Source of the DNA: Acidobacteriota bacterium
Lineage (GTDB): Bacteria > Acidobacteriota > Holophagae > Holophagales > Holophagaceae
Direction of reading: 5' to 3'
Assembly: GCA_016192145.1 (NCBI GenBank)
Contig: JACPUT010000017.1
Span: forward strand, 62,001 to 126,000
Length of the DNA stretch: 64,000 nt
The notes below the pieces were generated by a model. That model saw nothing but the letters and a program-made list of their open reading frames with translations, searched no databases and was not told the DNA's origin. Of this stretch, positions 195 to 55,665 are shown in pieces; the stretch's first letter is position 1, and each line of letters starts with the position of its first letter. The translations under genes were made by a program, and so were the position numbers.

Positions 195-208
195 CTCAAA
201 CTCCTCGC

Positions 209-2011
209 TTACTTGCCAGACTTTTCGAAGGCGTTGATCTGATCCACCACGGTCTTGGCATCGAGGGCCAAGCCGTCGTAGTGGAGGACGGATTTGAACT
301 TGGTGGCGGCTTCGGGGTAGAACTCCTTCAGCAGCGCGGCCATCTGGGCGTCGCGGTTCTGCTCCACCACGTAGATGACCTTTTTCTCCTGGATGAAGGT
401 GTCCACTTCGGCGGTGAAGGGCAGGGCGCGCAGGCGCAGGTAATCGGTCTTCAGGCCGGCCTGGGCCAAAAGGTCCTGGGCTTCGATCACCGCGGGATCG
501 CTGGAGCCGAAGGCGAGGACGCCCTTGTCGGAACCGAGGTTCCGGGAGAGGGGCTTGGGCACGTAGGACTTGGCGACCTCGTACTTCTTGCGGAGGCGAT
601 CCACGAGGGCGACATAATCCTCGGGCTTCTCGGAGTACTGGGCGTAGCCGTTGTGGCCGGAGCCGCGGGTAAAGTAGGCGCCCTTGCCACCGGGGGTGCC
701 GGGCAGGGTACGGAAGGGGATGCCGTCGCCGTCCACGTCCTTGTAGCGGCCCCAATCCTTGACCTCGTTCAGTTCCTTCTCGCCCAGCACCTTGCCGCGG
801 TCGTAGGGCTTGGTGGGGTAGGGGAAGGGATCGCTGGCCCAGTTCTGCATGCCCAGATCGAGGTCGGTGACGACGAAGATCGGGGTCTGGAAGCGCTCGG
901 CCAGGTTGAAGGCCTCGGAGGAGAACTCGAAGCACTCCTGCATAGTGCCGGGGTAGAGGTTGATGTGGAGGGTGTCACCGTGGCTGCACTTGGCGCAGAT
1001 CTCGATGTCGCCCTGCATGGTGCGGGTGGGCAGGCCGGTGGAGGGGCCCGTGCGCGCCACGTTGAAGAACACGCCGGGGATCTCGGTGAAGTAGCCGAGG
1101 CCGATGAACTCGCTCATGAGGGAGATGCCGGGGCCCGAGGTGGTGGTCATGGAGCGGGCACCGGCCCAGCCCGCGCCGAACACGGCGCCGGCGGAGGCGA
1201 GCTCGTCTTCCATCTGGACGACGGCGTAGGTGGCCTTGCCGTCCTTGTCGTGCCGGTACTCCTCAAGGTAGTCGATGAGGGTCTCGGAGAGGCTGGAGGC
1301 GGGGGTGATGGGGTACCAGGCCAGCACTTCGACCCCGGCGAACAGGGCGCCCAGGGCGCAGGCCGCGTTGCCATCGAGGATGATCTTCCCGGCGGTCTTG
1401 TTGTCACGGGCGACTTTGATCCCCGTCTGGTTGAGGCCGCTCTCCTTCGCCCAGGCGTGGCCGGCTTCGACGGCGCCCTGGTTGATCTCGATGGCCTTCT
1501 GCTTGCCCTTGAGCTGCTTGGTGATGGACTTCTTGGTCTCTTCGAGATCGATGTCGAGCATGAACGCGGCGACGCCCACGTAGATCATGTTCTTCACGAG
1601 CTTGTGGAGCTTGGGCTCGGGGCAGCAGGCCGTGACGATCTTCTGGAAGGGCACGGGGATGAAGGTGAGGTCGCTGCGCAGGGCATCGAGCTTCAAGGGC
1701 TCGTCATAGATCACGAGGCAGCCGGCGTCGGCCTTGGCGATGTCTTCCTTCGCCGTCTCGGGATTCATGAGGATCAACAGCTCGTTGCCGGCCTTTCGGG
1801 CCACGTAGCCGTCCTTGTTGGCGCGGATGGTGAACCACGTGGGCAAACCCGCGATGTTGGAGGGGAAGAGGTTCTTGCCACTCACGGGAACGCCCATCTG
1901 GAAGATGGAACGCATGAGGACGGTGTTGGCCGTCTGCGACCCGGAACCATTTACGGTGGCCACCTGGATCGAGAAATCATTGATCTTCGTGGCCGCAAGC
2001 GCGGTGGACAT
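209..2011 (-). CDS. korA: 2-oxoacid:acceptor oxidoreductase subunit alpha (gamma-alpha fusion)
   Basis: A 600-residue protein of the KorA type, in which the gamma domain (about residues 1-190) is fused ahead of the alpha/pyrimidine-binding domain (about 225-600). The alpha part carries the YPITPASSLSE motif (family consensus YPITPSS) and the TSGPGISLMSEFIGLGYFTE region. I place the start at ATG 2011 because a good ribosome site (AAGGAG) precedes it; an in-frame ATG 45 nt upstream lacks one. KorAB couples 2-oxoacid oxidation, or the reverse carboxylation, to ferredoxin, as in anaerobic or reductive TCA metabolism. It forms a two-gene unit with korB. Whether it prefers 2-oxoglutarate or pyruvate is not decided here. 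Confidence 0.9.
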   Translation of the reverse strand: MSTALAATKINDFSIQVATVNGSGSQTANTVLMRSIFQMGVPVSGKNLFPSNIAGLPTWFTIRANKDGYVARKAGNELLILMNPETAKEDIAKADAGCLVIYDEPLKLDALRSDLTFIPVPFQKIVTACCPEPKLHKLVKNMIYVGVAAFMLDIDLEETKKSITKQLKGKQKAIEINQGAVEAGHAWAKESGLNQTGIKVARDNKTAGKIILDGNAACALGALFAGVEVLAWYPITPASSLSETLIDYLEEYRHDKDGKATYAVVQMEDELASAGAVFGAGWAGARSMTTTSGPGISLMSEFIGLGYFTEIPGVFFNVARTGPSTGLPTRTMQGDIEICAKCSHGDTLHINLYPGTMQECFEFSSEAFNLAERFQTPIFVVTDLDLGMQNWASDPFPYPTKPYDRGKVLGEKELNEVKDWGRYKDVDGDGIPFRTLPGTPGGKGAYFTRGSGHNGYAQYSEKPEDYVALVDRLRKKYEVAKSYVPKPLSRNLGSDKGVLAFGSSDPAVIEAQDLLAQAGLKTDYLRLRALPFTAEVDTFIQEKKVIYVVEQNRDAQMAALLKEFYPEAATKFKSVLHYDGLALDAKTVVDQINAFEKSGK

Positions 2012-2180
2012 GGGGCTCCTTCCCTTCTCAAGCGGCGGAACGGGAAATCCCGCCACACATGGACATGGCCACCCAGTATGCCAGAGCGAATCCGGAGCGG
2101 CCGAACCCTAATTTCGGACTAAGCAGGACAAGTGTTGATCTTGGTTACAAGCCGGGCGAAAAAAAGCGTAAAAAAAGGGA

Positions 2181-2209
2181 TTGACGCATGCCTGGGCGAA
2201 TCGTAGCTT
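2181..2209 (+). promoter_or_regulatory. Candidate sigma70 promoter of lexA, apparently giving a leaderless mRNA
   Basis: TTGACG (2181-2186), a 17-nt spacer and TAGCTT (2204-2209) make a good vegetative promoter. Transcription would begin at about 2216-2217, exactly at the lexA ATG, and no Shine-Dalgarno sequence precedes that ATG. A short inverted pair CAAG-N7-CTTG (2129-2143) lies further upstream and could be part of an operator, but I cannot recognise a LexA box with confidence. Confidence 0.45.
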
Positions 2210-2216
2210 TGAGCCC

Positions 2217-2876
2217 ATGAAAGCCCATGACCTGACCAAACGCCAGAAGGCGGTGATCGCCTTCATCGCTGATTTCCTGGAGGCGGAGGGGCGCAGCCCC
2301 ACCCTCACGGAAGTGGCCAAGGGCGTGGGGTCCAGCGCCGTGAGTACGATCCACAAGCACGTGCAGCACCTCATCGAGAAGGGATTGCTCGAGCGGAGCC
2401 ATGGCAAGGGCAACAACCTCGTGGTGGCCAAGGCCTGGGCCACGACCGGCGGCCAGGCCGCCGCGCCCAAGGCGGAACCCCCCGCCCAAGCTGGGGCCCG
2501 CCTGATCCCCTTCTGCGGCGATGTGGCCGCGGGCGCGCCGCTGATCCCCGAGACCCGGGCCCTGCCCATCGAAGTGCCCAACAGCATCCACCGCAACCGC
2601 GACGAGATCTTCGTCCTGCGTGTCCGAGGTGAATCCATGGTGGAGGACGCCATCCTGGATGGTGACCTGGTGGTGCTGCAGCGCCGCGGTGAATACCGCA
2701 ACGGGGACCGCATCGTGGCCCTCATCGATGGTGAGGAGGCCACTCTCAAGGAGTACCGGAAGGACCCCAAAGGCGTCTGGCTCGTGCCCCACAATCCGGA
2801 GCTGAAGCCGTTGCTCTACTCCGCGGACCGGATCCAGATCCAGGGGCTCGTCATCGGCATCATGCGCAGCTGCTGA
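2217..2876 (+). CDS. lexA: LexA repressor, SOS regulator and self-cleaving serine protease
   Basis: A 219-residue LexA. The N-terminal winged helix (about 1-65) contains SPTLTEVAKGVG and HKHVQHLIEKGLL. After an Ala/Pro-rich linker comes the cleavage site Ala105-Gly106 (VAAGAP), then catalytic Ser140 (VRGESMVED) and Lys178 (EATLKEY). The Ser-to-Lys spacing matches the family. It should repress DNA-repair genes and autocleave on RecA filaments. The linker is longer than in E. coli LexA. ATG 2217 is chosen because the conserved N-terminus begins there; an upstream TTG at 2181 is the promoter -35 element. It stands alone between two reverse-strand genes. Confidence 0.93.
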   Translation: MKAHDLTKRQKAVIAFIADFLEAEGRSPTLTEVAKGVGSSAVSTIHKHVQHLIEKGLLERSHGKGNNLVVAKAWATTGGQAAAPKAEPPAQAGARLIPFCGDVAAGAPLIPETRALPIEVPNSIHRNRDEIFVLRVRGESMVEDAILDGDLVVLQRRGEYRNGDRIVALIDGEEATLKEYRKDPKGVWLVPHNPELKPLLYSADRIQIQGLVIGIMRSC

Positions 2877-2882
2877 TCCGCA

Positions 2883-2904
2883 GCCGGCCTCAGGTGAGGT
2901 CGGC
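2883..2904. terminator. 22-bp palindrome between convergent lexA and dehydrogenase gene
   Basis: GCCGGCCTCA and TGAGGTCGGC form arms matching at 9 of 10 positions around a 2-nt centre, overlapping the stop codon of the reverse-strand gene. The location between convergent genes suits a bidirectional terminator, but there is no T-run, so the role is inferred. Confidence 0.35.
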
Positions 2905-3930
2905 CCTGATCGCGGCGCCCATCTCCTGGGTGGATAGGTTGCCGCCGAGGTCGCGCGTGGCTGCGCCACCTTGGAGGGCCTTGGCCACGGCCTGATCAAC
3001 CCGCTCTGCTTCTGCCGACCAGCCCAGGTGCCCGAATAGGAGACCGAGGGAGAGGATCGCGCCGGTGGGATTGGCCTGATCCCTGCCGACGAGGTCGGGC
3101 GCGGAGCCATGCACGGGCTCGGCGAGGGCGTGGCAGCGGAAGGGGCGATGGGGGGCGTAGCTGAGGCTGGGGGCCATTCCCATGCCGCCCATGAAGGCTG
3201 CCGTGAGGTCGCTGATCAGATCGCCCAGGTAATTGTCGGCGGCGATGACGCCGAAGGGGGTGGGGTCTTGAACGAGGGCGCAGAGCAGGGCATCGGCATG
3301 CATCCCGCGGGCTGCGACCTCCGGGTGCTTCGCCTTCAAAACCTCAAAGCGCGCCACCCAAAGGCCATGGCCGAACTTCAGCACGTTGGCTTTATGGGCG
3401 AGGGTGAGGGGGGCACCGAGCGTCTCGGCCCGCCGGAACGCTTCGTTGAGCAACCGGTCCACGGCGGCCTCGGTGTGGATGGCGAGGTCCACGGCGTGGC
3501 CTCCTTCCCGTGTGCCCTGCAGGCAATAGAGGCCTTCCGTGTTCTCCCGGAACACCTCCAGCCGCTGGGCCTCCACGGATCGATCCCGCAAGGGGCTGTG
3601 GGAAGCAAGGAAGGGGGTGCAGGGGCGCCAGTTCACGGCCAGCTGCAGGTCCTGCCGGAGCCTGAGGAGGATGCCCTCCGCATGCCGGCCATCGGGGATC
3701 CGGGGATCGCCGACGGCGCCGAAGATCACCGCGTCGAAGCCATCCCGAAGACGGGAAAAGGTGGCATCCGAGAGTGTCTCGCCCGTTGCGAGATAATGAT
3801 CGGCCCCTTGGGGGAAGTGCTCCCATGCCAGCTTCCGGCCCCGATTCCGGGCCCACTCCAGCAGCGGGAGGGCTTCCGCCAGTACCTCCGGCCCCACCCC
3901 ATCCCCGGGGATCACCGCCAAGCGGGTCAT
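2890..3930 (-). CDS. Isocitrate/isopropylmalate dehydrogenase family protein
   Basis: A 346-residue NAD(P)-dependent decarboxylating dehydrogenase. The N-terminus LAVIPGDGVGPEV is the family signature. Also present are RLRQDLQLAVNWRP (substrate arginine loop), VFRENTEGLY, the Lys region AHKANVLKFGHG, the metal-binding DNYLGDLISDL segment, EPVHGSAPDLVG and the C-terminal TRDLGG. The substrate could be 3-isopropylmalate, isocitrate, tartrate or a related malate; the motifs do not separate these and no leucine genes lie nearby. Start at ATG 3930 gives the family-typical N-terminus; in-frame ATGs at 3954 and 3972 are alternatives with equally weak ribosome sites. Confidence 0.8.
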   Translation of the reverse strand: MTRLAVIPGDGVGPEVLAEALPLLEWARNRGRKLAWEHFPQGADHYLATGETLSDATFSRLRDGFDAVIFGAVGDPRIPDGRHAEGILLRLRQDLQLAVNWRPCTPFLASHSPLRDRSVEAQRLEVFRENTEGLYCLQGTREGGHAVDLAIHTEAAVDRLLNEAFRRAETLGAPLTLAHKANVLKFGHGLWVARFEVLKAKHPEVAARGMHADALLCALVQDPTPFGVIAADNYLGDLISDLTAAFMGGMGMAPSLSYAPHRPFRCHALAEPVHGSAPDLVGRDQANPTGAILSLGLLFGHLGWSAEAERVDQAVAKALQGGAATRDLGGNLSTQEMGAAIRADLT

Positions 3931-3996
3931 GTCCACGATACCTGGTGCACTCATGAGGTCCGACTCTGACATACTCGCCCCGAATCGAGGTGTGAC

Positions 3997-4506
3997 ATGA
4001 GGAAGGGAGTCGCAGTCATGGGGATCCTGAGCTTGCTGGGTCTGAACGCATCCGCCAGCGATCTGACCGTGGGGACCAAGGCGCCGGCCTTCGAGGCCCA
4101 GGATCAGAACGGCAAGACGGTGAAGCTCTCCGATTTCGCAGGGAAGCAGAACGTCGTCCTCTATTTCTATCCCAAGGACGATACCCCGGGCTGCACCAAG
4201 GAGGCCTGCAGTCTGAGGGATGGTCACGGCGCGATCCTGGCCACGGGTTCCGTGGTGCTCGGGGTCAGCGGAGACGACGTGAAGAGCAAGAAGGCCTTCG
4301 CGGAGAAGTACCACCTTCCCTTCAGCATCCTTGCGGATCCGGAAAAGAAGATCTTGGAGGCCTATGGCGTGAAGATGGCCCTCATCGGTCTCGCACGCAG
4401 GGTCACCTTCATCATCGACAAGACGGGTACCATCCGTCACATCGTGACCGAGGTGAACACCGCCGCCGCGGACAAGCAGGTGCTGGAACTGCTGAAGTCG
4501 CTCTAG
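3997..4506 (+). CDS. Exported peroxiredoxin, PrxQ/Bcp type
   Basis: A 169-residue thiol peroxidase. YPKDDTPGCTKEACSLRD carries the peroxidatic Cys66, with Cys71 five residues later as resolving cysteine, the classic PrxQ/Bcp arrangement. Unlike cytosolic Bcp it begins with a hydrophobic signal-like stretch (about residues 1-20, ending ASASD), so it probably works in the periplasm reducing hydroperoxides. A GAGGTG ribosome site precedes ATG 3997. It is divergent from the dehydrogenase gene with at most 66 bp between the starts, so its promoter must be compact. No dedicated reductase is adjacent. Confidence 0.88.
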   Translation: MRKGVAVMGILSLLGLNASASDLTVGTKAPAFEAQDQNGKTVKLSDFAGKQNVVLYFYPKDDTPGCTKEACSLRDGHGAILATGSVVLGVSGDDVKSKKAFAEKYHLPFSILADPEKKILEAYGVKMALIGLARRVTFIIDKTGTIRHIVTEVNTAAADKQVLELLKSL

Positions 4507-4590
4507 GAACGCCTCCAAGTAACCCATGGGGTTCCCCTTCCTTGCGGGGTGGGACCCTGGCTAGACTGGAAGCCCTCCCGAGGTCCAGGA

Positions 4591-5874
4591 ATGGTGTTTT
4601 TTAACCACGCCACGCGTCAGATGACAGCCAAGATCGTTTACTACGGTCCGGGCCTGTGTGGGAAAACGACCAACCTCAACACCATCTATGGGAAGACCTC
4701 CAAGCAGGCCCGCGGTGAGATGGTGAGCCTCAACACCGAGACGGACCGCACCCTGTTCTTCGACCTGCTGCCCATGGACGTGGGCACCGTGGGTGGTTTC
4801 AAGACGAAGCTCCAGCTCTATACGGTGCCCGGCCAGGTCTTCTACAACAGCACCCGCAAGCTCGTGCTCAAGGGCGTGGATGGCATCGTGTTCGTGGTGG
4901 ATAGCCAGACGGCCATGTCGGACGCCTGCAAGGACAGCTTCCTCAACCTCCAGGAGAACCTGAAGGAGCTTGGGCTGGAGCTGAAGGACATTCCCATCGT
5001 CTTCCAGTGGAACAAGCGCGATCTCAAGAACGTCGTGCCCGTCGAGGAACTCGAAGCCCACTTCAATTCGATGAACCTTCCCAGCTTCCAGTCGGTGGCC
5101 TCGGATGGCGCGGGGGTCTTCGAGACCCTGAGGGGCATCACGCGACTCGTGCTCGGGCACATCAAGACCCACGTGCTCGGCGAAGGCGCCGCGCCCGCGG
5201 CCAAGCCGGCTCCCGTTGCCGCCGCCGCTTCCGGTGCCGAAGCGTTGAACCTCTCGGATCTTCCCGCGGTTTCCGATCTGCTGGAGCTGAACACGAGCGT
5301 GGTGGAAGCCGCCATGGAAGCGGCCCCCGATGAACTCACCGACACGGGCCTGAACATCGAAGCGCCGGAATTGCCCGAGCACCCCTCCGCGCTCGGCTCG
5401 GAACCCCTTCCTGATACGGAGGATGCCGATTCCCTCTTGGGGGAGGCGCCCGTGTTCGATGAGCCTGCCCAGGCAACCCCGGAGTTCGACGAATCCCTCG
5501 TGGAAGCTCCCGCCTTCGATGCGCCGGCTGCGCCCGAGCTCGAGCCCGAGCCCGTGCAGGTGCAGGCCCCTCCCGCGGTGGAACCGCCCCACCCACCCGT
5601 GCCGACCATGATCATCCCCAAGGCCACGGCGAAGCCCAAGATCCCCACCATGGACAAGGGCGCCATCGACAGCCTGATGGGGGAACTCACGCAGGTGGGC
5701 CGACTCGGAGCCCCTTCGGTGCTGCGGCTGGATGTGCCCGATATCGAGGGGGATGTGGAAGTCGTGGTGCAGGTGATGAAGGCCGGCCAAGTCATCGCCG
5801 AGCAGCGCCAGGTGCGCCCCGCGCCGCGAAAGGGCATCACCTCGAAGCTCTCGGTGGAGCTCAAGCGCAGCTGA
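4591..5874 (+). CDS. MglA-like Ras-family GTPase with a long C-terminal extension
   Basis: A 427-residue protein. Residues 1-195 are an MglA-type small GTPase: P-loop GPGLCGKTTN (19-28), switch-II TVPGQ (78-82, lacking the usual Asp as in MglA), YNSTRKLVLKGVDGIVFVVD, and the guanine-specificity motif NKRD (141-144). MglA directs polarity of motility and of polar machinery. Typical MglA ends near residue 195; here about 230 residues follow, an acidic Pro/Ala/Glu-rich linker (about 200-345) and a compact C-terminal segment (about 350-427, LRLDVPDIEGDVEVVVQV) that reads as beta-rich. No MglB roadblock partner is adjacent. Its stop overlaps the start of the next gene by 1 nt. ATG 4591 is used because the conserved N-terminus MVFFNHATRQ begins there. 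Confidence 0.87.
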   Translation: MVFFNHATRQMTAKIVYYGPGLCGKTTNLNTIYGKTSKQARGEMVSLNTETDRTLFFDLLPMDVGTVGGFKTKLQLYTVPGQVFYNSTRKLVLKGVDGIVFVVDSQTAMSDACKDSFLNLQENLKELGLELKDIPIVFQWNKRDLKNVVPVEELEAHFNSMNLPSFQSVASDGAGVFETLRGITRLVLGHIKTHVLGEGAAPAAKPAPVAAAASGAEALNLSDLPAVSDLLELNTSVVEAAMEAAPDELTDTGLNIEAPELPEHPSALGSEPLPDTEDADSLLGEAPVFDEPAQATPEFDESLVEAPAFDAPAAPELEPEPVQVQAPPAVEPPHPPVPTMIIPKATAKPKIPTMDKGAIDSLMGELTQVGRLGAPSVLRLDVPDIEGDVEVVVQVMKAGQVIAEQRQVRPAPRKGITSKLSVELKRS

Positions 5875-6455
5875 TGCTCCGGCCCTCGCAGTGCTTCCTC
5901 ACCGTGCTCCTGGGCGTGGGCGCCCTGTCCGCGCAAGCTCCGGCCTGGTGGACCCGGCTGCAGGCCCGGCCCAGCCTGGAGGCCGCTTTCGCGCAGGAGG
6001 GGGAGAGCGCCGTCTTCGGGAAGGTGAGCCGCGAAGGCACCCTGCGTCTCGCACCGGGGGGCCGACTCCGGGTGGCCTACACCCGCGGCCTGCTCATCCT
6101 CTGCGATGGCAAGCGGCTCATCCAGTTCGACCCCGACACCCGCAGCGCCCAGCGCCTGGATCTGAAACGGGCCCTCGCGGAAGTTCCCCTGCTGACCGTC
6201 CTGATGGATCCCCGGGAGGTGGAGCGGCATTTCCGCATCGCCTTCCAGGGGGAGCGGGTGACCCTGACCCCCAAGGAACCCGGAATGCCCACCCTGGAAG
6301 CGGAGGGCAGGGGGGGCTGGCCCGAGCGCTTCCAGTGGACGGATGCCACGGGAGCCCGTCAGGTCCTGCGCCTCAAGGCCCCGCGCGCTTCCAAGGAGGA
6401 TGCCGCGAGCTTCACGTTCGTCCCGCCCCCGGGCACCCGGTGGGCCGAGAACTGA
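5874..6455 (+). CDS. LolA-like outer-membrane lipoprotein carrier protein
   Basis: A 193-residue protein with a signal peptide (about 1-20, cleavage after LSAQA). The order of motifs fits the LolA fold: GTLRLAPGGRLRVAYTRGLLILCDGKRLIQFDPDT, then LLTVLMDP and a C-terminal Phe-rich FTFVPPPGTRW. LolA shuttles lipoproteins through the periplasm from LolCDE to the outer membrane. It overlaps the MglA-like gene by 1 nt, so the two are translationally coupled, an unusual pairing. A DUF2092 or other LolA-superfamily carrier is possible; sequence similarity to canonical LolA is modest. Confidence 0.7.
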   Translation: MLRPSQCFLTVLLGVGALSAQAPAWWTRLQARPSLEAAFAQEGESAVFGKVSREGTLRLAPGGRLRVAYTRGLLILCDGKRLIQFDPDTRSAQRLDLKRALAEVPLLTVLMDPREVERHFRIAFQGERVTLTPKEPGMPTLEAEGRGGWPERFQWTDATGARQVLRLKAPRASKEDAASFTFVPPPGTRWAEN

Positions 6456-6465
6456 TAGGCAGGCT

Positions 6466-6590
6466 GTAGGCTGGAGACTTCAGACTGGAGGCTTGAAATC
6501 GCGGTGCGACGTAGCTCCGCGATGGGTCCGACTCCGGCCGCAAGAAACGCTTTGGCCGTCACCTCCTCTGGCCTCCAGCCTCCGGCCTAC
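6466..6590. repeat. Nested inverted-repeat island between convergent genes (GGCTGGA word family)
   Basis: Outer arms GTAGGCTGGAG...GACTGGAGGC (6466-6492) and the complementary GCCTCCAGCCTCCGGCCTAC (6571-6590) enclose a perfect 7-bp inner pair ATCGCGG (6498-6504) / CCGCGAT (6517-6523). The outer arms are made of the 7-nt word GGCTGGA/GACTGGA, the same word as in the island at 44045-44234. The right arm overlaps the stop codon of the small mutase gene. Confidence 0.7.
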
Positions 6591-6994
6591 GCTCTGCCCT
6601 TCGCCGCCGCCTTGCGGATGAACTCCACCACATCATCGGTGCTGGTGCCGGGCTGGAAGATCTCCTGGATGCCGGCGGCCTTGAGGCCAGGGATGTCGGC
6701 GTCGGGGATGATGCCGCCCGCGAACACCGGCACGTCATCCGCGCCCTGTTCCTTCAGGAGGCGGAGGATTTCGGGAAAGATCTGATTGTGGGCGCCACTG
6801 AGGATGGAGAGCCCGAGCACGTCCGCGTCCTCCTGCACCACGGCCGCCACGATCTGGGCGGGCGTCTGGCGGAGGCCGGTGTAGATCACCTCCATTCCGG
6901 CATCACGCAGGGCCCGGGCGATCACCTTCGCCCCCCGGTCGTGCCCATCGAGGCCGGGCTTGGCGATGACCACGCGGATGGGGGCTTGGGACAT
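6587..6994 (-). CDS. Methylmalonyl-CoA mutase small (cobalamin-binding) subunit
   Basis: A 135-residue B12-binding domain. [15 protein letters not shown] contains the DxHxxG motif whose His is the lower axial cobalt ligand; LSILSGAH and FAGGIIPD are the conserved Ser-x-Leu and Gly-Gly loops contacting the nucleotide tail. It corresponds to the C-terminal domain of methylmalonyl-CoA mutase as a separate polypeptide. The catalytic subunit that would complete it is at 41168-42823 on the other strand. The enzyme interconverts succinyl-CoA and R-methylmalonyl-CoA in propionate metabolism. A different acyl-CoA mutase (isobutyryl type) could also use it. Confidence 0.88.
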
Positions 6995-7024
6995 GGGAAC
7001 TCTCCAACAACCTTCTAGTTTGCC

Positions 7025-7711
7025 TCAATTGCCGAAGGGCCGCTTCTCGAAGACGTCGCTGATGCGCTGGCCATCCCAGCGGTAGCAGAGGAAGCGCACA
7101 TGGCGGCAGTGGCTCAGGCCCTTGGGAGACCAGGCCGCGAGGCACTCGCCCCCGGCCAGGCGCACGCTGTCATAGGCCACCCCCCTCACGCCTTCACCCC
7201 TCAGGCGGGCGGCGAGGGTCTGGGACGCGGCGTAAGAATCCGGATCGTAGACCTGCGGCAGCTTTTGTCCGCGGAGATCCTGGTAGGTCCCCTTGGCCCG
7301 CAGGGAGAGCACCCGCAGGTCCAGGTCCAGGGGCTCCAGGCCGCCGTTCCGGCAGAAGGCCTCCTGGTGGAAGCGGGTCTCGGCGATGGCGACGTCCATC
7401 GTGCGGCCCGCGTAGAGGGCGCCGAAGGCGGCGGTGGAGAAGCGGCCGGGCCGGGGGTGGGTGAAGGGGGCCATGAGAAAAGAGGCCCCGGGGCCGTGCA
7501 CCCGATCTTCGATCCGAACCTGGGCCAGATCCCCCACTTCGTCGAGGAACCGTGGATTGGTCAGGGCCTCCAGGGCCGCGAGGGCCTCCCAATCCGCGGG
7601 GTCCGCCAGCTCCTCGAAGAGGTTCACGGCGGGGAAGCGGGTTGAGATGATGCGCCAGGCCTGCCACTTGAGGTCTAGAAGCGTGTCCAAGTGACTCAAC
7701 GTGGCCCCCAT
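7025..7711 (-). CDS. RES-domain toxin (NAD+-degrading type) of a RES/Xre toxin-antitoxin pair
   Basis: A RES-domain protein of about 228 residues. WRIISTRFPAVN supplies the conserved Arg, AIAETRFHQEAF the Glu, and VAYDSVR the Ser of the family's R-E-S signature. Characterised members (e.g. MbcT) destroy NAD+. It lies immediately downstream of the antitoxin gene. The start is uncertain: ATG 7711, an in-frame GTG 15 nt upstream just after AGGAGC, and a TTG downstream are all possible, and all fall in or beside a perfect 12-bp inverted repeat (7680-7729). Confidence 0.82.
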   Translation of the reverse strand: MGATLSHLDTLLDLKWQAWRIISTRFPAVNLFEELADPADWEALAALEALTNPRFLDEVGDLAQVRIEDRVHGPGASFLMAPFTHPRPGRFSTAAFGALYAGRTMDVAIAETRFHQEAFCRNGGLEPLDLDLRVLSLRAKGTYQDLRGQKLPQVYDPDSYAASQTLAARLRGEGVRGVAYDSVRLAGGECLAAWSPKGLSHCRHVRFLCYRWDGQRISDVFEKRPFGN

Positions 7712-7729
7712 GGGTTGCTTGGACACGCT
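7680..7729. promoter_or_regulatory. Perfect 12-bp inverted repeat straddling the toxin start codon
   Basis: AGCGTGTCCAAG arms (7680-7691 and 7718-7729) flank a 26-nt loop that contains the ATG of the RES toxin. In the mRNA this would put the start codon in the loop of a stable hairpin whose first arm adjoins the AGGAG ribosome site. It could limit toxin translation, or as DNA be an internal operator for the antitoxin. The role is inferred; the repeat itself is directly visible. Confidence 0.6.
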
Positions 7730-7748
7730 CCTAAAGCGGGCGGGCCGC

Positions 7749-8144
7749 TCACCAGATTCCCCGGGCCGCATCCAGGTGGCGGCGCACATCGGCCAGATCC
7801 ACCATGCGGCCCTGGAGCAGGCGCTCCAGGGGGGGGCGGCCGCCGAACAACGGATCCCCATTGGGTTTCTGAACCCAGGCCAGGGCCTGCCGCGCCTCGG
7901 GGATGAGGATCTTGAGGGCTTTCCAGATGCCCAGCAGGTAGCTCAAGCGTTCCAGGGTGTCCCGGGAGAGCCCCGTGGGCGGCGCTTTCCGCCAGCGGTG
8001 CAAGGTGGCTCTCGAAGGGCTACCCAGGAGGATCCGCTGCTCCTCGAAGCCCAGCCCCCAGAGTTCGGCCATCCGGAAGAAGGCCCGCAGGCCCACGCCG
8101 GCCAGCTCGTGGGAGGGGCGGGGCTCGGCGAGGGGTGAGGGCAT
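7749..8144 (-). CDS. Xre/MbcA/ParS-type antitoxin
   Basis: A 131-residue protein. A helix-turn-helix-like part (about 20-75: GFEEQRILLGSPSRATLHRW and LSRDTLERLSYLLGIWKAL) is followed by the DUF2384/MbcA toxin-binding segment (LAWVQKPNGDPLFGGRPPLERLL), typical of antitoxins paired with RES toxins. It begins at ATG 8144 after a GGAG site. The stop is 37 nt before the most likely toxin start. It should neutralise the toxin by direct binding and repress the pair through the inverted repeat upstream (8172-8204). Confidence 0.85.
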   Translation of the reverse strand: MPSPLAEPRPSHELAGVGLRAFFRMAELWGLGFEEQRILLGSPSRATLHRWRKAPPTGLSRDTLERLSYLLGIWKALKILIPEARQALAWVQKPNGDPLFGGRPPLERLLQGRMVDLADVRRHLDAARGIW

Positions 8145-8171
8145 GGGAGGCTCCAGGCCCAGGATGGTCCA

Positions 8172-8204
8172 ATTTGAGACAAATTCAATAAATTCATCTC
8201 AAAT
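8172..8204. promoter_or_regulatory. Operator/promoter region of the RES/Xre pair
   Basis: ATTTGAGA (8172-8179) and TCTCAAAT (8197-8204) are a perfect 8-bp inverted repeat around an AT-rich 17-nt centre. This is the only strongly AT-rich stretch nearby and lies directly upstream of the antitoxin start. TTGAGA on the reverse strand could be a -35 element. It is well placed for autoregulation by the antitoxin. Confidence 0.55.
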
Positions 8205-8209
8205 GAGAG

Positions 8210-8668
8210 TCACCAGCCTTTGGTCTGCCGAAGGGCCTCGTAGAGCCCGATGGCCGCGGCCTGGGCCACGTTCAGGCTGCGGTGGAATTCGCCCACCATG
8301 GGGATCTTCACCAGATCTTCCGGATGGTCCTTGATCAGGTCGTCCGGCAGGCCCCGGGTCTCCCGGCCGAAGACGAGGCCATCGCCATCGGCCCAGGCCA
8401 CTTGGGTGTGGGTGCGTTGGGCCTTGGTGCTGAAGAGCCGCAGGGGCATGCCGGGATTGCGGGCGCGGAAATCGGCCCAGTCGTCGTAGTGGGTAGGGGC
8501 CAGGCGTTCCCAATAATCCAGCCCCGCCCGGCGCAGGTAGTAATCGCTCACCTCGAATCCAAGGGGGTGAATGAGGTGCAGTTTGGCGTCGTTGCTCACG
8601 CAGAGCCGGCCGATGCTTCCGGTGTTCTGCGGGATCTCGGGTTCGTGCAAGATGATGTGGAAGCTCAA
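8210..8668 (-). CDS. trmL: tRNA (cytidine(34)-2'-O)-methyltransferase, TrmL
   Basis: A 152-residue SPOUT methyltransferase. The N-terminus IILHEPEIPQNTGSIGR, the central LVFGRETRGLPDDL and the C-terminal IPMVGEFHRSLNVAQAAAI are the three SPOUT motifs forming the AdoMet-binding trefoil knot. TrmL methylates the wobble ribose of tRNA-Leu. The start is TTG 8668: no ATG or GTG precedes the conserved motif at a suitable distance. It is head-to-head with the HIT gene, only 9 nt separating the two start codons. Confidence 0.87.
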   Translation of the reverse strand: MSFHIILHEPEIPQNTGSIGRLCVSNDAKLHLIHPLGFEVSDYYLRRAGLDYWERLAPTHYDDWADFRARNPGMPLRLFSTKAQRTHTQVAWADGDGLVFGRETRGLPDDLIKDHPEDLVKIPMVGEFHRSLNVAQAAAIGLYEALRQTKGW

Positions 8669-44048: not shown

Positions 44049-44234
44049 GCTGGAGACGGGAGGCTGGAGGCTGGAGGTTGGATTCGGTGGCGGCCTCCGG
44101 CCGCACTTATATCAAGTGCGGGCCGGAGGCCCGCCTCAAATTCCAGTCTCCAGTCTCCAGTCTCCAGTCTCCAGTCTCCAGTCTCCAGTCTCCAGTCTCC
44201 AGTCTCCAGTCTCCAGTCTCCAGCCTCCAGCCTT
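44045..44234. repeat. Nested inverted-repeat island between ftsW and a DUF2344 gene
   Basis: The left arm (44045-44082) is a string of GGCTGGA/GGAGGCT words. An inner stem GCCTCCGGCCGCACTT (44093-44108) pairs with 44114-44130 across a 5-nt loop, with one bulged base. The right arm is the expanded CAGTCTC tract followed by CAGCCTC and CAGCCTT. It fills nearly the whole gap between the convergent genes. The same words form the island at 6466-6590. Confidence 0.8.
44144..44220. repeat. Heptanucleotide tandem repeat (CAGTCTC)x11
   Basis: Eleven uninterrupted perfect copies of CAGTCTC, 77 bp, followed by two degenerate copies (44221-44234). It forms the right outer arm of the surrounding nested palindrome, and the left arm has only about five related words. 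Perfect copies imply recent slippage, so copy number may vary between strains. It is outside coding sequence. Confidence 0.95.
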
Positions 44235-44239
44235 CCGCC

Positions 44240-45325
44240 TCACCCCAACTGCAACGGCTCGTCGTCGTCCTCATCCACCAACGTGATGTTTCCGCCGGAG
44301 GTGAGCAGGGTGGCGTCCTCGTAAAAGTTCTTGAGCTTGGTCTCGAAGCGCTCGGCCTTGGCGAGGCGCGGGTCCTCTTCGAAGGTGATGTCCTCCCGGA
44401 CCAGGCCTTGGAGGGAGGTCGCCTCCACTCCCAGCACGCCGCCCAGGAGCTTCAGGGGGTTCAGGGCCACGCCGGATCGCAGGGCCATGGTGAAGCGCAG
44501 GGTGCCGCGATCCAGGTGCATTTCGGTGATGTGGGGGCGGAGATCCACGAGCTTGTCCGCCTTCTGTCCTTCGACCTTTCCGGCTTTGCCGAGCGGAAAG
44601 TCGTCGGACGCGAGGAAGGTCTCCACCTTGGCGCGCACTGCTTCGGGGGGGAGGGCGCAGGGCCAGGCGTAGTGGGCCTCCCGGGCGAGCCCGACGGAGG
44701 CGCTGGCCCAGGTGGGGAGTTCCACCCAGGAGACGAGGGCGAGGCCCTCGGGCAGGCGATCATTGACGCGGTGGACGACTTGATCGACCTCCTCGCGCAC
44801 GGGCTCGAAAAGTTCGCATTCCGCACACTCGCGCAAACCTTCGACTCCCACGCTGAGGGGAGGTGCGATCTGGAACAGGGGCTTGGGATTCCGGCTCAGC
44901 TCCAGGGCAGGGCGGAGGCCCTCCAGGCGCAGGGCTTCCACGAGCAGGGTCTGGAGTTCCGGCGTGCCCAGGGCGGCGAGCGCGGCGCCGCGGGAGAAGC
45001 GCAGCCGGATGCGAACCCGCTTGGCATCCAATTGCCAGTTGGCGGATCGGCGCTTGCGGGCTTGTTCGGCCAAGGGATCCATCTCCAGCTTGAGAGCCTG
45101 CAGCGAGGGTGCCTGCCGCACGGATTCCCGGAGGCGCTCGTGAGCTTCTTCAAGCAGGCCCTTGCCTTGGAGCTCGTCGAATAGCGAACGCGCGGCGCTG
45201 ATATCCCTGCGTCGGATGGTCTCGCGGAACGCCAGCAATGCTGCGGGTTCCCGGCTGGGGGCGAACTGCGCCATGTGGGAGATCAAGGATTCCAGGGTAG
45301 GGGGGGCGGAAGTGGGGGAGCTCAC
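44240..45325 (-). CDS. DUF2344 (radical SAM-linked, TIGR03936-type) protein
   Basis: A 361-residue protein. After a helical N-terminal region (about 1-100) comes a DUF2344 domain (about 105-300): KRVRIRLRFSRGAALAALG, RPALELSRNPKPLFQIAPPLSVGVEGLREC and LPEGLALVSWVELP. This domain is normally fused to or adjacent to a radical-SAM protein of unknown function; here none is nearby. The C-terminus (about 300-361) is acidic. I choose GTG 45325 because GGAGAA precedes it; ATG 45358 is an alternative. Confidence 0.72.
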   Translation of the reverse strand: MSSPTSAPPTLESLISHMAQFAPSREPAALLAFRETIRRRDISAARSLFDELQGKGLLEEAHERLRESVRQAPSLQALKLEMDPLAEQARKRRSANWQLDAKRVRIRLRFSRGAALAALGTPELQTLLVEALRLEGLRPALELSRNPKPLFQIAPPLSVGVEGLRECAECELFEPVREEVDQVVHRVNDRLPEGLALVSWVELPTWASASVGLAREAHYAWPCALPPEAVRAKVETFLASDDFPLGKAGKVEGQKADKLVDLRPHITEMHLDRGTLRFTMALRSGVALNPLKLLGGVLGVEATSLQGLVREDITFEEDPRLAKAERFETKLKNFYEDATLLTSGGNITLVDEDDDEPLQLG

Positions 45326-50679: not shown

Positions 50680-52461
50680 TCAGATCCCCAGGGCCTTTTC
50701 CAGGGCATCCCGTTGTCCCCTGAATCCATCCACGCCCTTGGCGGAGAGGAGGGTGGCCTTCGCGGCGTCCTTCTGGCCGAGCCGGAGCTGGGCCTGGGCA
50801 CGCATGAGGCTCACCCAGCCAAGCTGGGAGGGACTGGGTTTGGTGGGGTAGAGGGCCAGGGCCCCGCGGTAGTCGCCGGTCTGGGCATGGAGATCCGCCA
50901 CGCGGATGAGGAGGGGTTCCTTGGCGTCGGCCTTCTCGGAGAGGCGGCCGAGCCAGCCTTGGGCCTCCTGCCGGCGCTGGGCAGGAGTCTCGCCCTTGGC
51001 GAGGGGTCGTTGGAGGAGGGTGGTGATGGCGCGGATCCGTTCGGGCCCGGGTTGGGCCCGGGGCGCGGTGGCACGTGCGCCCTTCCAATCCTGGAGGGTC
51101 ACCTGGGCTCGGAGGCGGGTGAGCTCCTGGGCGGGAGTGGCCTTGGCGGGGAGCAGGGACAGCACGGCCTTGGGTTGGGCCTCGGGTTCCACCTTGGCCA
51201 GGGCGGCGAGGGCGAGGGGATTCCGTTCGGGCCCGGGGGCTTCCCGGATCAGCCGGGGAAGCTCCGCCGCGAGCCCCTGCTTGGCGAGCAGCTCGATCAC
51301 GCCCAGTCGCTGCTTGGGCCCGAGGGCGGCGAAGGCGCCGGCTCGCATTCGCTCGAGCATCACGCCGGCGAAGCCCTTTTCAAGGCGGGAATCCACCCAG
51401 AGGCCCCAGGCGTCCTTCCAGAGGCGGCGCACTTCAGCCACCTGGGTGGCGACGCCCTTCTCGGCGTATTCGGCCATCCAGGTATCGGCCTGCTTGAGAA
51501 GCTCCTCCCAGAGCTCCTTGCGGTAGAGGATCCGCAGCTCCACGACCCCCGCGAGGGCATCGTCGCCGGGATTCCCGGCCTTGCGGAGCTCGGCCAGCAG
51601 GCTTTCGGCGTCGGGCATACCTTTGAGATCCTTGCCCTTCAGGGAGCCATCTGTGAGCAGCGTGGCCAGGGCCAAGCGGGCCTCATCGGCCTCCGGCGCC
51701 TTGGGATAGTCGGTGATGAGCTTGCGAAAGGACTGGGCGCTGGCGCGGGGTTCGTTCATGCGGCCGAGCATCTGGGACCAGGCGAGATCCACCTGGGGAG
51801 TGTGGGGTCCCTTCTCATAGAGGTTGTGGAAGGAGCGCCGATTCGCATCCGCCTCGTCCTTGCGCTTGGCTTCGCAAAGGATGATCACCATCGCGGCCAG
51901 GCCCTGTTCGGAGGGCTCGGCCTCCTTCTCCAGGGGGCGCAGGGTATCCAGGATGGGCAGGCCCTCAAGGGGCCGCCCGGTCTCCACCAGGAGCCACAGG
52001 AGCAGTTCCTGGGAGCGCCGCTTGCGCTCGCCGGGGATGTCGGAGTCGAGGCTGGCGCGGAGGCGGGTTTCGCATTCCTTCATCCGCTTTCGGAGGAGGG
52101 CCTCTTCCGCGAGCGGCAGCTGGGCTTCGCCCAGGAAGGGAGACTTTGGGAAGGTGGTCTCGAGCTTTTTGAGGGGCTCGGCGGCATCCTCCAGGCGGCC
52201 CGCCTTCCACAGGGCCATCCCCTGGGCGAAGAGCACCACCTCCCGCTGGGGCGCCTTGCTGCTCTTGAAGACATGGCCTTTGAGGCGTTTCAGGCCTTCG
52301 GCCAGGGCCTTGGGATCCTCGGTGCGGAGCATGCCCTCCGCCACTTCCGAAGCCTGCGCATCCGTCATGCGCCCGGTGGCTTGGGGGGCGGCCACGAGGG
52401 TGGGAACCGCGAGGAGGACCGCGAGGGCAGGGTGGATGGCCACGGTCCGGGGGCGCCTCAC
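50680..52461 (-). CDS. Secreted helical-repeat (TPR-like) protein of unknown function
   Basis: A 593-residue, mostly alpha-helical protein with a hydrophobic N-terminus (about 8-27, ALAVLLAVPTLVAA) and many short amphipathic helix pairs (ALWKAGRLEDAAEPLKKLET, SFRKLITDYPKAPEADEARL, RVADLHAQTGDYRGALALYP) of tetratricopeptide type. It is probably periplasmic and a scaffold for protein contacts. It starts at GTG 52461, whose ribosome-binding region is a duplicated copy of the end of the response regulator gene (see repeat 52454-52593). The cyclophilin gene follows 14 nt after its stop. Confidence 0.7.
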   Translation of the reverse strand: MRRPRTVAIHPALAVLLAVPTLVAAPQATGRMTDAQASEVAEGMLRTEDPKALAEGLKRLKGHVFKSSKAPQREVVLFAQGMALWKAGRLEDAAEPLKKLETTFPKSPFLGEAQLPLAEEALLRKRMKECETRLRASLDSDIPGERKRRSQELLLWLLVETGRPLEGLPILDTLRPLEKEAEPSEQGLAAMVIILCEAKRKDEADANRRSFHNLYEKGPHTPQVDLAWSQMLGRMNEPRASAQSFRKLITDYPKAPEADEARLALATLLTDGSLKGKDLKGMPDAESLLAELRKAGNPGDDALAGVVELRILYRKELWEELLKQADTWMAEYAEKGVATQVAEVRRLWKDAWGLWVDSRLEKGFAGVMLERMRAGAFAALGPKQRLGVIELLAKQGLAAELPRLIREAPGPERNPLALAALAKVEPEAQPKAVLSLLPAKATPAQELTRLRAQVTLQDWKGARATAPRAQPGPERIRAITTLLQRPLAKGETPAQRRQEAQGWLGRLSEKADAKEPLLIRVADLHAQTGDYRGALALYPTKPSPSQLGWVSLMRAQAQLRLGQKDAAKATLLSAKGVDGFRGQRDALEKALGI

Positions 52462-52593
52462 GGCAGCCACCTCGCCAGCAAGCTCCTTTGCTCGGTATCC
52501 CCTGCGGGGATACGCGAGACCCCGGTGGATTCGGTTCTGCCCATGGCTAGGGTAAGTCGCCTCATGGCAGCCATCTCGCCAGCAAGCTCCTTT
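52454..52593. repeat. Duplicated gene junction: 36-nt direct repeats flanking a 68-nt hairpin insert
   Basis: Copies at 52454-52489 and 52558-52593 match at 34 of 36 positions. The right copy holds the last codons and TGA stop of the response regulator, with an ATG overlapping that stop (ATGA). The left copy holds the ribosome site and GTG start of the helical-repeat gene. Between them (52490-52557) is a unique sequence with a perfect GTATCCCC-TGC-GGGGATAC stem (52495-52513). The layout suggests an ancestral overlapping gene pair split by an insertion that duplicated the junction. Confidence 0.8.
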
Positions 52594-53209
52594 TTGCGGC
52601 GTCGAACTCCTCTTCGGAGAGCAGGCCCCGGCTGCGGAGCGAGGCCAGGCGCTCGAGATCACCGAGCTGGCTGCCGCCCTCCACCGGGCCGGCGGGAGTG
52701 ATGCGGGTGGCCAGCATCTCCATGCGGCCCAGGGTGGCGTCCTTCTGTTCCAGCTTGCCCTCCAGCTCCTTCACCCGCAGGCGCAGGGCATCCCGTTCCC
52801 GGGTGAGCTGCTGGTGCTCCATCAACCGGCGCAGGGTGTTGCGGAAGGGGTCGATCTGCATGGGTTTGGTGATGAAGTCGAAGGCGCCCAGCTCCATGGC
52901 CTCAGTGGCCTCGCGAACGCTGCCGAAGCCGGTGAGCATCAGGACCGTGCAACTTCGGTTGACCTCCAGGGCCGTGCGGAGCACCTCCATGCCACCCTTG
53001 CCCGGCATCACCAGATCCGTGATCACCAGTTCGAAGGGGGGTTGGGCGCGCAGGAGCTTGATCTCGGCCTCTTCGCCGCTGGCCGCCTCGGTCACGACGA
53101 AGCCCTCCTGCTGAAGCAGGGAACTGAGGGTTTCCCGGAGTACGGGATCGTCATCCACGAGGAGGATTCGCGGCGCCGGGAGGTGATGGGGAACGATGGG
53201 GCGGGTCAA
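52562..53209 (-). CDS. Response regulator with receiver, coiled coil and SHOCT-like tail
   Basis: A 215-residue protein. The receiver domain (about 12-130) has LLVDDDPVLRE (acidic pocket), the phospho-acceptor Asp65 in LVITDLVMPGKGG, Thr in VLMLTGFG and Lys in FITKPMQ. A coiled coil (about 135-165, ERDALRLRVKELEGKLEQKD) follows, and the end (about 182-215, LERLASLRSRGLLSEEEFDA) matches the short SHOCT domain. There is no DNA-binding domain, so it likely acts by protein contact or oligomerisation. The start is TTG 53209 after GGTGAG; no ATG or GTG is available. It follows flhB on the same strand. Confidence 0.82.
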   Translation of the reverse strand: MTRPIVPHHLPAPRILLVDDDPVLRETLSSLLQQEGFVVTEAASGEEAEIKLLRAQPPFELVITDLVMPGKGGMEVLRTALEVNRSCTVLMLTGFGSVREATEAMELGAFDFITKPMQIDPFRNTLRRLMEHQQLTRERDALRLRVKELEGKLEQKDATLGRMEMLATRITPAGPVEGGSQLGDLERLASLRSRGLLSEEEFDAAKRSLLARWLP

Positions 53210-53315
53210 GGGCTCACCGGGATGGATAGTCCATCGGCACGAGGGGCGGGTGGCTGGAGAGGGGCCCCGTAGCCTAGCACCTCGAGGGTCCCTGCTGGAA
53301 GGCGGAAGGACCGGT

Positions 53316-54368
53316 TCACGCCGCCCCCTTGAGGCGGTAGACGAAGGCGATGACCTGGGCCACGGCGTGGTAGAGCTCACCGGGAATGGGCTGACCCACC
53401 TCCACCTGGCGATAGAGGGCCCGGGCGAGCTCCGGGCGCTCGAGGATGGTGACGCCGCTCTCCTTGGCCTTCTCGCGGATCTTGAGGGCCAGGTGGTCGA
53501 GCCCCTTGGCCAGGCAGATGGGGGCCGCCGAGTTCTCGTCGTACTGGAGGGCGATGGCCACATGGGTGGGGTTCGTGATCACCACGGTGGCCTTGGGGAC
53601 GGAAGCCAGCATCCTGCGGCGGGCGGCCGTCATCATGAGGCCCCGCTGCTGGCGCTTGATCTCGGGGTTGCCATCCGCATCCTTCGCCTCGTCCTTCACC
53701 TCCTGCTTGGTCATCTTGATGGATTCCTCGAAGGAATGGCGCTGGTACATGAAGTCGGCCACGGCGAGGAGGAACATGGCGATGAGCATGTTCCGGTAGA
53801 GCACGAACAGCGTGCCCTCCAGCAGGCTCATGGCCTGGGGAAGCCCCATGTTGGAGGTCTGGAGCAGCCCCGGGATGTGGGGCGCGACCGTACGCCAGGC
53901 CACGAACACCAGGAGCAGGAGCTTCAGGAGGCTCTTGAGCAGCTCCACCGCGGAGCGGGAGGAGAAGAGCTTCTTGAATCCCTGGGCGGGGTTCAGGCGG
54001 TCGAACTTGGGGGTGAGGGGTTTCATGTTCGGCGAGAACCCCCGTTGGAGGAACCCCCCCAGCACCGCGATGAGGAGGTTCGTGGCGAGGAAGGGGCCCA
54101 GGGTCTTGGCCAGGATCCGCATGATTTCCAGCAGCACATGCCCCTGCCGGGCTTCGGCGAGGGCGCCGGGCCGCGCGAGGTTCAGGAAATGGGCCATCTC
54201 CTGCCCCAGGGCGGCCACGGTGGCCCCCCCCAGGCCGATGAACAGGAAGAGGTTCCCCCAGAGCAGCAGGGCCGCATCGAAATCCGCCGAACGGGGGACT
54301 GAGCCTTCATCCCGAGCCTGTTGGCGTCGTTTGGGAGTCGCTTTCTCGGTGCGTCCGGGTTCAGCCAT
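53316..54368 (-). CDS. flhB: Flagellar export protein FlhB
   Basis: A 350-residue protein. Four membrane helices (about 32-205) and a cytoplasmic domain with the autocleavage motif NPTH (266-269) identify FlhB, the substrate-specificity switch of the flagellar export gate. The N-terminus EKATPKRRQQARDEG is typical. It is the last flagellar gene of the fliO-P-Q-R-flhB series here; flhA is not in the window. Confidence 0.95.
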   Translation of the reverse strand: MAEPGRTEKATPKRRQQARDEGSVPRSADFDAALLLWGNLFLFIGLGGATVAALGQEMAHFLNLARPGALAEARQGHVLLEIMRILAKTLGPFLATNLLIAVLGGFLQRGFSPNMKPLTPKFDRLNPAQGFKKLFSSRSAVELLKSLLKLLLLVFVAWRTVAPHIPGLLQTSNMGLPQAMSLLEGTLFVLYRNMLIAMFLLAVADFMYQRHSFEESIKMTKQEVKDEAKDADGNPEIKRQQRGLMMTAARRRMLASVPKATVVITNPTHVAIALQYDENSAAPICLAKGLDHLALKIREKAKESGVTILERPELARALYRQVEVGQPIPGELYHAVAQVIAFVYRLKGAA

Positions 54369-54375
54369 ACAAGCC

Positions 54376-55191
54376 CTAGCCCCCGATCATGCGGGGCAGG
54401 AGCCGTGCCACCTGCTCCATGAGCGGCCGCAACCAGGTGGGCAGCTCCCGGAGGATGAAGCCCAGCAGGAGGAGGCCCAGGGAAATCTTCAGGGGGAAAC
54501 TCAGCTGGAGCAGTTGGAGCTGGGGCATGAACTTGCCCGCCACGCCCATGGCGAGGTCGAGCATGAAGAGCAGGGCGAGTACCGGGAAGGCCAACATGAA
54601 TCCCCGCCCGATGATCTGCCCGAGGAAAACCACCATCCCCAGCGCATCCACGGCGGGAAGGTGGCCCGGTGGCACCACCCGCCAGCTGTCGTGCAGGGCC
54701 TGGATGGCCACGTGGTGGAGCCCGGTGATGAAGAAGAGCAGCAGGGCCACCTGGCCCAGCAGGGAGCCCGCGACGGAGGTTGGGTTGGCACTCACGGGAT
54801 CCAGGAACTGCACGAAGGAGAACCCCATCTGCGTATCCATGAGGTTGCCGGCGAACGCCACGGCTTCGATGATCCAAGCCACGAGGGTGCCCAGCAGGAG
54901 ACCCACCGCGAGCTCCCCGGCCAGGGCGAAAACCATGTCGGGCAGGCCCCAATTCTTGGCGCCGGCCGGCATGGCGAGCGAGGGGGCCATGAGGGTGGCC
55001 AGACTCACGCCCAGCACCACCCGGAACTGGTTGGGCATGCGCTCAGCCCCGAATCCGGGCATGGCGCCCAGGAGGCCGCTCACCCGGGTCAGCGCCAGCA
55101 TCCAGATCAGAACGCGCTCCTGGGTGAGGGCCCAGGTTGCGGCGTTGGTGAGGGTGGGTGGCAACGTGGGCTGGAGCAGGGGTTGGAGCAT
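54376..55191 (-). CDS. fliR: Flagellar export protein FliR
   Basis: A 271-residue membrane protein with about six helices, in the order fliQ-fliR-flhB. RVSGLLGAMPGFG, VALAGELAVGLLLG, and MGFSFVQFLDP are conserved FliR segments. It forms the helical core of the export gate with FliP and FliQ. Confidence 0.93.
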   Translation of the reverse strand: MLQPLLQPTLPPTLTNAATWALTQERVLIWMLALTRVSGLLGAMPGFGAERMPNQFRVVLGVSLATLMAPSLAMPAGAKNWGLPDMVFALAGELAVGLLLGTLVAWIIEAVAFAGNLMDTQMGFSFVQFLDPVSANPTSVAGSLLGQVALLLFFITGLHHVAIQALHDSWRVVPPGHLPAVDALGMVVFLGQIIGRGFMLAFPVLALLFMLDLAMGVAGKFMPQLQLLQLSFPLKISLGLLLLGFILRELPTWLRPLMEQVARLLPRMIGG

Positions 55192-55201
55192 GGCCGGGCT
55201 C

Positions 55202-55480
55202 CTATCCCAATCCGCGGGTGACCGGGCCCCAATCCGTGAACATCCGGATGGCGAAAGCGCCCATCACCCGAATCATCCAGGGGAAGGTGGCCACCACCAC
55301 GACCATCACCACCACCATCTTGGGCACGAAGGCGATGGTCTGATCCTGCAGGCTGGTGACCACCTGGAAGATGGACACCATGAGGCCGACGATCAGGGAG
55401 ACCAGGAGGGCCGGGCCCGCGACCATGAGCGAGGTCTTCAGGGCGTCCTGGGCCAGCTTGGCGATGACGAGCTCGTTCAT
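55202..55480 (-). CDS. fliQ: Flagellar export protein FliQ
   Basis: A 92-residue protein with two membrane helices: ALLVSLIVGLMVSIFQVVTSLQDQTIAFVPK split around the conserved QDQT motif, then a second helix. It is part of the FliPQR export gate. Its start and ribosome site lie in a duplicated copy of the fliP 3' end, and the stop is 10 nt before fliR. Confidence 0.95.
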   Translation of the reverse strand: MNELVIAKLAQDALKTSLMVAGPALLVSLIVGLMVSIFQVVTSLQDQTIAFVPKMVVVMVVVVATFPWMIRVMGAFAIRMFTDWGPVTRGLG

Positions 55481-55665
55481 CCCGTGTACCCCCGGACGAG
55501 GCTGCTCACGATGAGGTACCAGCCGTCGACCTCCCGCACTCCGCGAGCGGTGGCGAGCGGGAGCACCGTGCGAGGCACGGTGCGATAGAAGGGAGAGATG
55601 GTCGAATGGATCATCCCGTATACCCCCGAACGAGGCTGCTCACGATGAGGTACCAGCCGTCGACC
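55477..55665. repeat. Duplicated fliP/fliQ junction: 55-nt direct repeats flanking a 79-nt hairpin insert
   Basis: Copies at 55477-55531 and 55611-55665 match at 53 of 55 positions. The right copy is the real end of fliP, including the stop. The left copy still encodes the fliP tail in frame up to a TGA that overlaps the fliQ ATG (ATGA). Between them (55532-55610) is unique sequence with a perfect 9-bp stem GCACCGTGC / GCACGGTGC (55563-55571, 55575-55583) and a second stem CTCCCGC / GCGGGAG. The plan is the same as at 52454-52593. Confidence 0.88.

Follow-up and report, generated by a model that had tools for sequence, protein, structure and literature searches.

A dispersed family of short hairpins in an Acidobacteriota genome is polymorphic for insertion among related genomes, lies at a short target motif, mostly between two copies of a gene terminus whose spacing obeys a length rule, and is bridged by mini-ORFs where the neighbouring genes overlap. 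Two junctions of the window, the whole 64,000-nucleotide stretch under analysis, are occupied in this way, one by a hairpin of family A and one by a hairpin of family B. Together with dozens of sister cases, they represent a repeated, apparently undescribed mode of insertion that damages no gene. In our judgement these are probably mobile repeats, short, palindromic and non-autonomous, that on insertion leave behind a long and length-constrained duplication of a gene terminus; the terminus would be spared and coupling probably maintained by the mini-ORF.

At the first junction, the end of a response-regulator gene, whose product has the Pfam domains Response_reg and SHOCT, is present in two copies. 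These form a direct repeat (52454-52489 and 52558-52593, 34 of 36 nt identical) around a 68-nt insert at 52490-52557, with a perfect hairpin of uninterrupted 8-bp stem. The features, in the order of transcription, are:

52558-52593, minus strand: copy 1 of the duplication, the functional 3' end of the response-regulator gene, with TGA at 52562-52564 (relatives compared)
52521-52557, minus strand: spacer S of the family-A insert, with nothing related elsewhere in the genome
52491-52520, minus strand: family-A hairpin GTCTCGCGTATCCCCGCAGGGGATACCGAG, 57 bits to model R1
52454-52489, minus strand: copy 2 of the duplication, the regulator end again, with the GTG start (52459-52461) of the TPR protein gene
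52458-52565, minus strand: bridging mini-ORF of 35 codons, with 4-nt overlaps with the regulator stop and the TPR-protein start; translation MRRLTLAMGRTESTGVSRIPAGDTEQRSLLARWLP, then stop
50680-52461, minus strand: downstream gene of a TPR-containing protein (Pfam)

The second junction, between fliP and fliQ, has the same layout. The fliP end occurs twice (55477-55531 and 55611-55665, 53 of 55 nt identical) and encloses a 79-nt insert at 55532-55610, with a perfect hairpin of uninterrupted 9-bp stem:

55611-55665, minus strand: copy 1 of the duplication, the functional 3' end of fliP (Pfam), with TGA at 55611-55613
55584-55610, minus strand: spacer S of the family-B insert
55563-55583, minus strand: family-B hairpin GCACCGTGCCTCGCACGGTGC, with the 9-bp stem
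55532-55562, minus strand: remainder of the family-B element, with a second GC-rich stem TCCCGC..GCGGGA (folding)
55477-55531, minus strand: copy 2 of the duplication, the fliP end again, with the fliQ ATG (55478-55480)
55477-55614, minus strand: bridging mini-ORF of 45 codons, with 4-nt overlaps with the fliP stop and the fliQ start; translation MIHSTISPFYRTVPRTVLPLATARGVREVDGWYLIVSSLVRGYTG, then stop
55202-55480, minus strand: intact fliQ (Bac_export_3)

The regulator and TPR-protein genes are both intact despite the insert, and so is fliP upstream of the second one. The coordinates, repeat counts and insert lengths in the initial annotation of this DNA are exact, and the perfect stem-loop that it reported in each insert is confirmed. 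A perfect stem of at least 8 bp occurs in 1.7% of random 80-nt windows of this genome. On folding, the fliP/fliQ insert beats 200 of 200 shuffles (z -3.8), and the 52.5-kb insert is weakly better than its shuffles (z -1.6). At the setting used, the two direct-repeat pairs are the only ones of their kind in the 64-kb window, apart from a 7-nt tandem repeat (TCCAGTC, at 44142-44260).

Alignment with relatives reveals the empty sites. The fliP stop and fliQ start share an ATGA overlap without insert in seven relatives, and the regulator stop overlaps the next start without interruption in nine. As relatives keep the uninterrupted ATGA or GTGA overlap at both junctions, the layouts of the window are insertions, in agreement with the insertion with duplication first proposed. 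A FliP scan of named genomes returned no close relatives. In G016, which belongs to another genus, a family-A hairpin is inserted at the same regulator site with a spacing of 105, its GAATC/GATTC replacing GTATC/GATAC. Pairs of genomes from the same genus differ at a transporter gene: the insert is present in G004 and missing from G014, present in G000 and missing from G001. Since the layout is found also in the single-contig assemblies G004 and G010, an assembly artefact is unlikely.

The two inserts have no sequence in common, as had been noted, yet related copies of each hairpin exist at other places in the genome. Family A consists of dispersed palindromes of the form GTCTCGCGTATC-nnn-GATACCGAG with compensatory stem changes. 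In an alignment of 13 copies, whose hairpin foot is GTCTC/GAG, two stem pairs switch from C-G to G-C, and the covariation score is reached by none of 500 shuffles. The covariance model matches 11 of 19 genomes. Counting both strands, there are 14-30 matches in G000, G001, G004, G005 and G011; other genomes have fewer, and outside the family there are almost none. The sisters of the 55.5-kb hairpin, family B, are of the type TATC-GCA...TGC-TCCC. An Rfam search of four loci gave no credible match to a known structured RNA. We also observe a third hairpin type, TCCGCGGAGTCCACTGGACTCCGCGGA, between the copies of a 56-nt duplication with a spacing of 102 (G000:C1:233-390, L066).

We based the census on 1.26 of the 3.8 Mb of this genome, with additional pattern and model searches, and gathered 78 family-A hairpins from about ten related genomes. 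Copies of flanking sequence enclose 50 of the 78, against 3 of 86 random control anchors (Fisher p about 5e-18); the other 28 have no detectable duplication. For family B, duplications surround five of seven hairpins and six of 400 control positions. In an unbiased scan of the 1.26 Mb, coding and tandem repeats excluded, most long duplications surround a hairpin of 8 bp or more, with spacings of 104 and 106 (A), 134, 212, 250 and 188 (B), and 102 (another hairpin). The controls and the unbiased scan reject a chance origin. Many further cases were thus found in this genome and in related genera, and relatives do not all carry the duplicated layout; neither outcome that had been named as evidence against an active mechanism is observed. 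In a locus of its own (L332:18385-18646), a gene end is duplicated (46 nt, 91%) at a spacing of 216 around a 170-nt GC-rich insert. One viral contig shows the pattern as well.

The duplication obeys a length rule. Its downstream (second) copy starts at the hairpin foot, on an ANRATG-like site. For family A, 34 cases have a start-to-start distance of 101-110 bp and another 10 one of 145-169 bp; minus the hairpin, it is mostly 73-78, otherwise 115-141 bp. The recognisable part of the duplication varies from about 15 to more than 120 nt. Both 105 and 157 bp seem close to whole helical turns. Across 45 target sites, partly non-independent since several are copies at uppS or a biotin carrier, A occupies position 1 in 44, A position 4 in 39 and G position 6 in 43. 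The consensus ANRATG agrees with the AAGATGA seen after many hairpins. Several family-A hairpins without duplication (L083, L084, L138, L155, L166) stand within stretches of repeated CACCAAGACACC, apparently another dispersed repeat serving as target.

The similarity of the copies usually stops at the gene boundary. Targets recognised by Pfam are uppS, a biotin carrier protein and nuoJ; those recognised by eye are nuoK, trxB, polA and an amino-acid transporter. Hairpins are oriented both sense and antisense to the gene. The idea that palindromic DNA repeatedly enters translationally coupled junctions stands as to the repetition, but the hairpins belong to dispersed families rather than being arbitrary palindromes, and the targets are gene ends and starts in general (uppS, trxB, polA and others). 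The gene uppS carries inserts in 8 of 16 family genomes. In several genera (L303-L311), one to three truncated uppS starts stand in tandem upstream of uppS, each followed by a family-A hairpin. In a biotin-carrier gene-end array (L113, G011:C124), the C-terminal end encoded by the middle copy clearly departs from that of the two others.

Spacer S is less regular. Its in-register identity with the opposite flank is 0.31 against 0.27; with a signal so weak overall, though clear in a few loci, we rejected the view of S as a plainly decayed copy of that flank. Several loci fit a fixed-length duplication: in L156 and L160 it is full-length and includes a non-coding terminator, in L112 spacer and opposite flank hold homologous terminators, and in L102, L129 and L122 the start codons of copy and original are in register. 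In L014, L142 and the window, the duplicated coding part is 94-100% identical while S bears no resemblance to the flank it corresponds to. A simple duplication of fixed length and a single age would not give this result.

In the window, each mini-ORF starts at the ATGA that holds the upstream stop codon and finishes on a TGA overlapping the downstream start. Similar ones occur at nuoJ/nuoK, the transporter and uppS in several genomes; in all, 33 of 78 family-A sites have a mini-ORF, against 15-21% of controls. The 4-nt overlap, initially described as broken, is indeed no longer direct, but its place is taken by a mini-ORF that shares 4 nt with the gene on either side. Judging from this arrangement, coupling is probably not destroyed: in both window cases, and at overlapping junctions generally, the mini-ORF would preserve it. 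For MIRUs, too, it has been proposed that a small ORF sharing 4 nt with the neighbouring start lets the insertion spare expression (PMC12548453).

We propose the following course of events. The family-A unit would enter at the short ANRATG motif, with the hairpin foot abutting the target, and a target stretch of about 73-78 bp, less often about 115-141 bp, would end up on both sides; hairpin and duplicated stretch together would then measure about 105 or 157 bp. We infer that the duplication arises during insertion, and that the folded hairpin is recognised by an enzyme acting in trans. Since the gene end or start is included in the duplicated stretch, the neighbouring gene would keep a complete terminus and the insertion would be tolerated, even where genes overlap. 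The part beyond the reading frame would later lose similarity and become spacer S. At overlapping junctions a mini-ORF would run from the upstream stop to the downstream start, probably keeping the coupling. Repeats between copies would allow tandem expansion, and probably loss. It is conceivable, if doubtful, that we are dealing with a new class of mobile DNA of about 105 bp, moved by an enzyme, that duplicates or carries a terminus of about 75 bp in lengths resembling helical turns (about 105 and 157 bp) and is harmless in essential operons.

The differences between the two copies complicate this picture. A frame-free phase test puts 132 of 195 differences in the commonest codon phase (expected 97, s.d. 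4); when protein motifs were used to fix the gene frames, synonymous codon changes outnumbered the others by 73 to 20. The four differences within the window are all synonymous, each with an AT-ending codon in the gene-attached copy and a GC-ending one in the other. By hand count, AT-ending codons are commoner in the gene-attached copy by 38 to 10, for example in L102, L129, L131 and the window. Decay would hit all positions, so copy 2 is unlike a freely decaying leftover. Three possibilities present themselves: renewal of copy 2 from native sequence, evolution of copy 1 in another place, or constraint on both copies.

This puzzle keeps alive an explanation that we nevertheless consider unlikely, in which a mobile unit of about 105 bp (terminus, spacer and hairpin), specialised on one gene, re-enters it at the terminus in different strains and swaps that terminus for its own copy, displacing the native one in the manner of prophage integrases at gene ends. 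It would account for units of fixed size whose homologous part varies and for the mostly synonymous differences, such as the 11 changed codons of the L102 transporter start, all synonymous. It also fits the resemblance of the relatives' native-like sequence to copy 2 at fliP and the regulator, the use of the same target genes by different genera (the eight uppS genomes) and the likeness of transporter-site spacers in two genera (z 6.2), each with an empty partner of the same genus. However, the two L102 copies share Q and I, amino acids not found there in the other genus, so that this copy came from its own lineage; many copies, as in L109, L156 and L160, are 97-100% identical including non-coding bases, which points to on-the-spot duplication; and no circular form or integrase is known.

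Tandem arrays of the family-A duplication unit at L110, L111, L137, L054 and L131 recall a replication error, and hairpins generally stimulate replication slippage. A template switch provoked by the hairpin, which would duplicate about 105 bp in tandem and template the hairpin without any transposition, is nonetheless improbable: the conserved foot at unrelated loci, the target motif, the narrow lengths and the dispersal across genera need a mobile source. We give still less credence to conserved attenuators or coupling devices held by selection, with no mobile DNA involved. Presence at uppS in eight genomes, mini-ORF enrichment and synonymous differences would suit such regulatory elements, but presence is patchy even within genera, two unrelated hairpin families share one layout, and sense and antisense orientations both occur.

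We also compared the inserts, which we read as mobile repeats that duplicate their target, with known machineries. The Y1 transposase (PF01797) is found in G007 and G011, and no match exists in G000, G001, G004, G005, G006, G008 or G010. REP/RAYT mobilisation was rejected, as the enzyme is missing from G000 and from the complete, element-rich G004; the REP/RAYT foot GTAG or CGTC is also absent from the family-A hairpin. Target-primed retro-insertion was rejected because G000 has no match to the reverse transcriptase domain PF00078. Genuine integron integrases were identified in G000, G004, G005, G007, G010 and G003. The hairpin shows neither attC-type boxes (GTTRRRY/RYYYAAC) nor kinship to the attC sites of these bacteria, as seen in G004. 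Integron cassettes were rejected in turn: the 142-nt attC repeats of G004 end in GGGTTAGGC and are unlike the hairpin, and no recognisable attC pair adjoins the two integrases of G000 (C6:186626 and C5:73499). In G004 a chromosomal integron array of 15-16 attC-type repeats, each about 142 nt long, adjoins an integrase (L334, G004:C1:572000-591999, positions 3-8649).

Such repeats could spread through gene-dense operons, as the insertion itself supplies a second gene terminus and a mini-ORF for coupling. Target duplications so long with nearly fixed spacing match no common bacterial transposition system that we considered, which gives good reason to look for the enzyme. For comparative work, a ready data set exists in the arrays at uppS and other essential genes.

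Integrative elements such as prophages and islands restore the end of the gene they enter, so that the terminus occurs twice, in copies with silent changes; here, by contrast, the insert is only 50-110 bp and without genes. MITEs are similarly small, non-autonomous and hairpin-forming, with a target duplication, but of 2-10 bp, not of tens of bp with nearly fixed spacing; no parent transposon came to light in the present searches. REPs and REPINs share the dispersed 20-40 bp palindromes near genes and the compensatory stem variation (PMC3733652, PMC3116915). They differ from our families, which have a low copy number, no GTAG/CGTC foot, no Y1 transposase of the RAYT (TnpA_REP) kind in this genome or in G004, and long duplications that find no mention in the REP paper compared. 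Enterobacterial RU-1/2/3 are repeats of about 100-170 bp carrying ORFs, in the portion of the source consulted, which does not mention a gene-end duplication like the present one (PMC2759123). There is also a likeness in arrangement to MIRU: short, apparently mobile junction repeats with a 4-nt-overlapping small ORF and tandem copies (PMC12548453). Family-A and family-B inserts may work like MIRU at overlapping genes; unlike MIRU, they are palindromic units, the neighbouring gene end is duplicated for a length of 15 nt up to more than 120 nt, and uncoupled gene starts and ends serve as sites as well.
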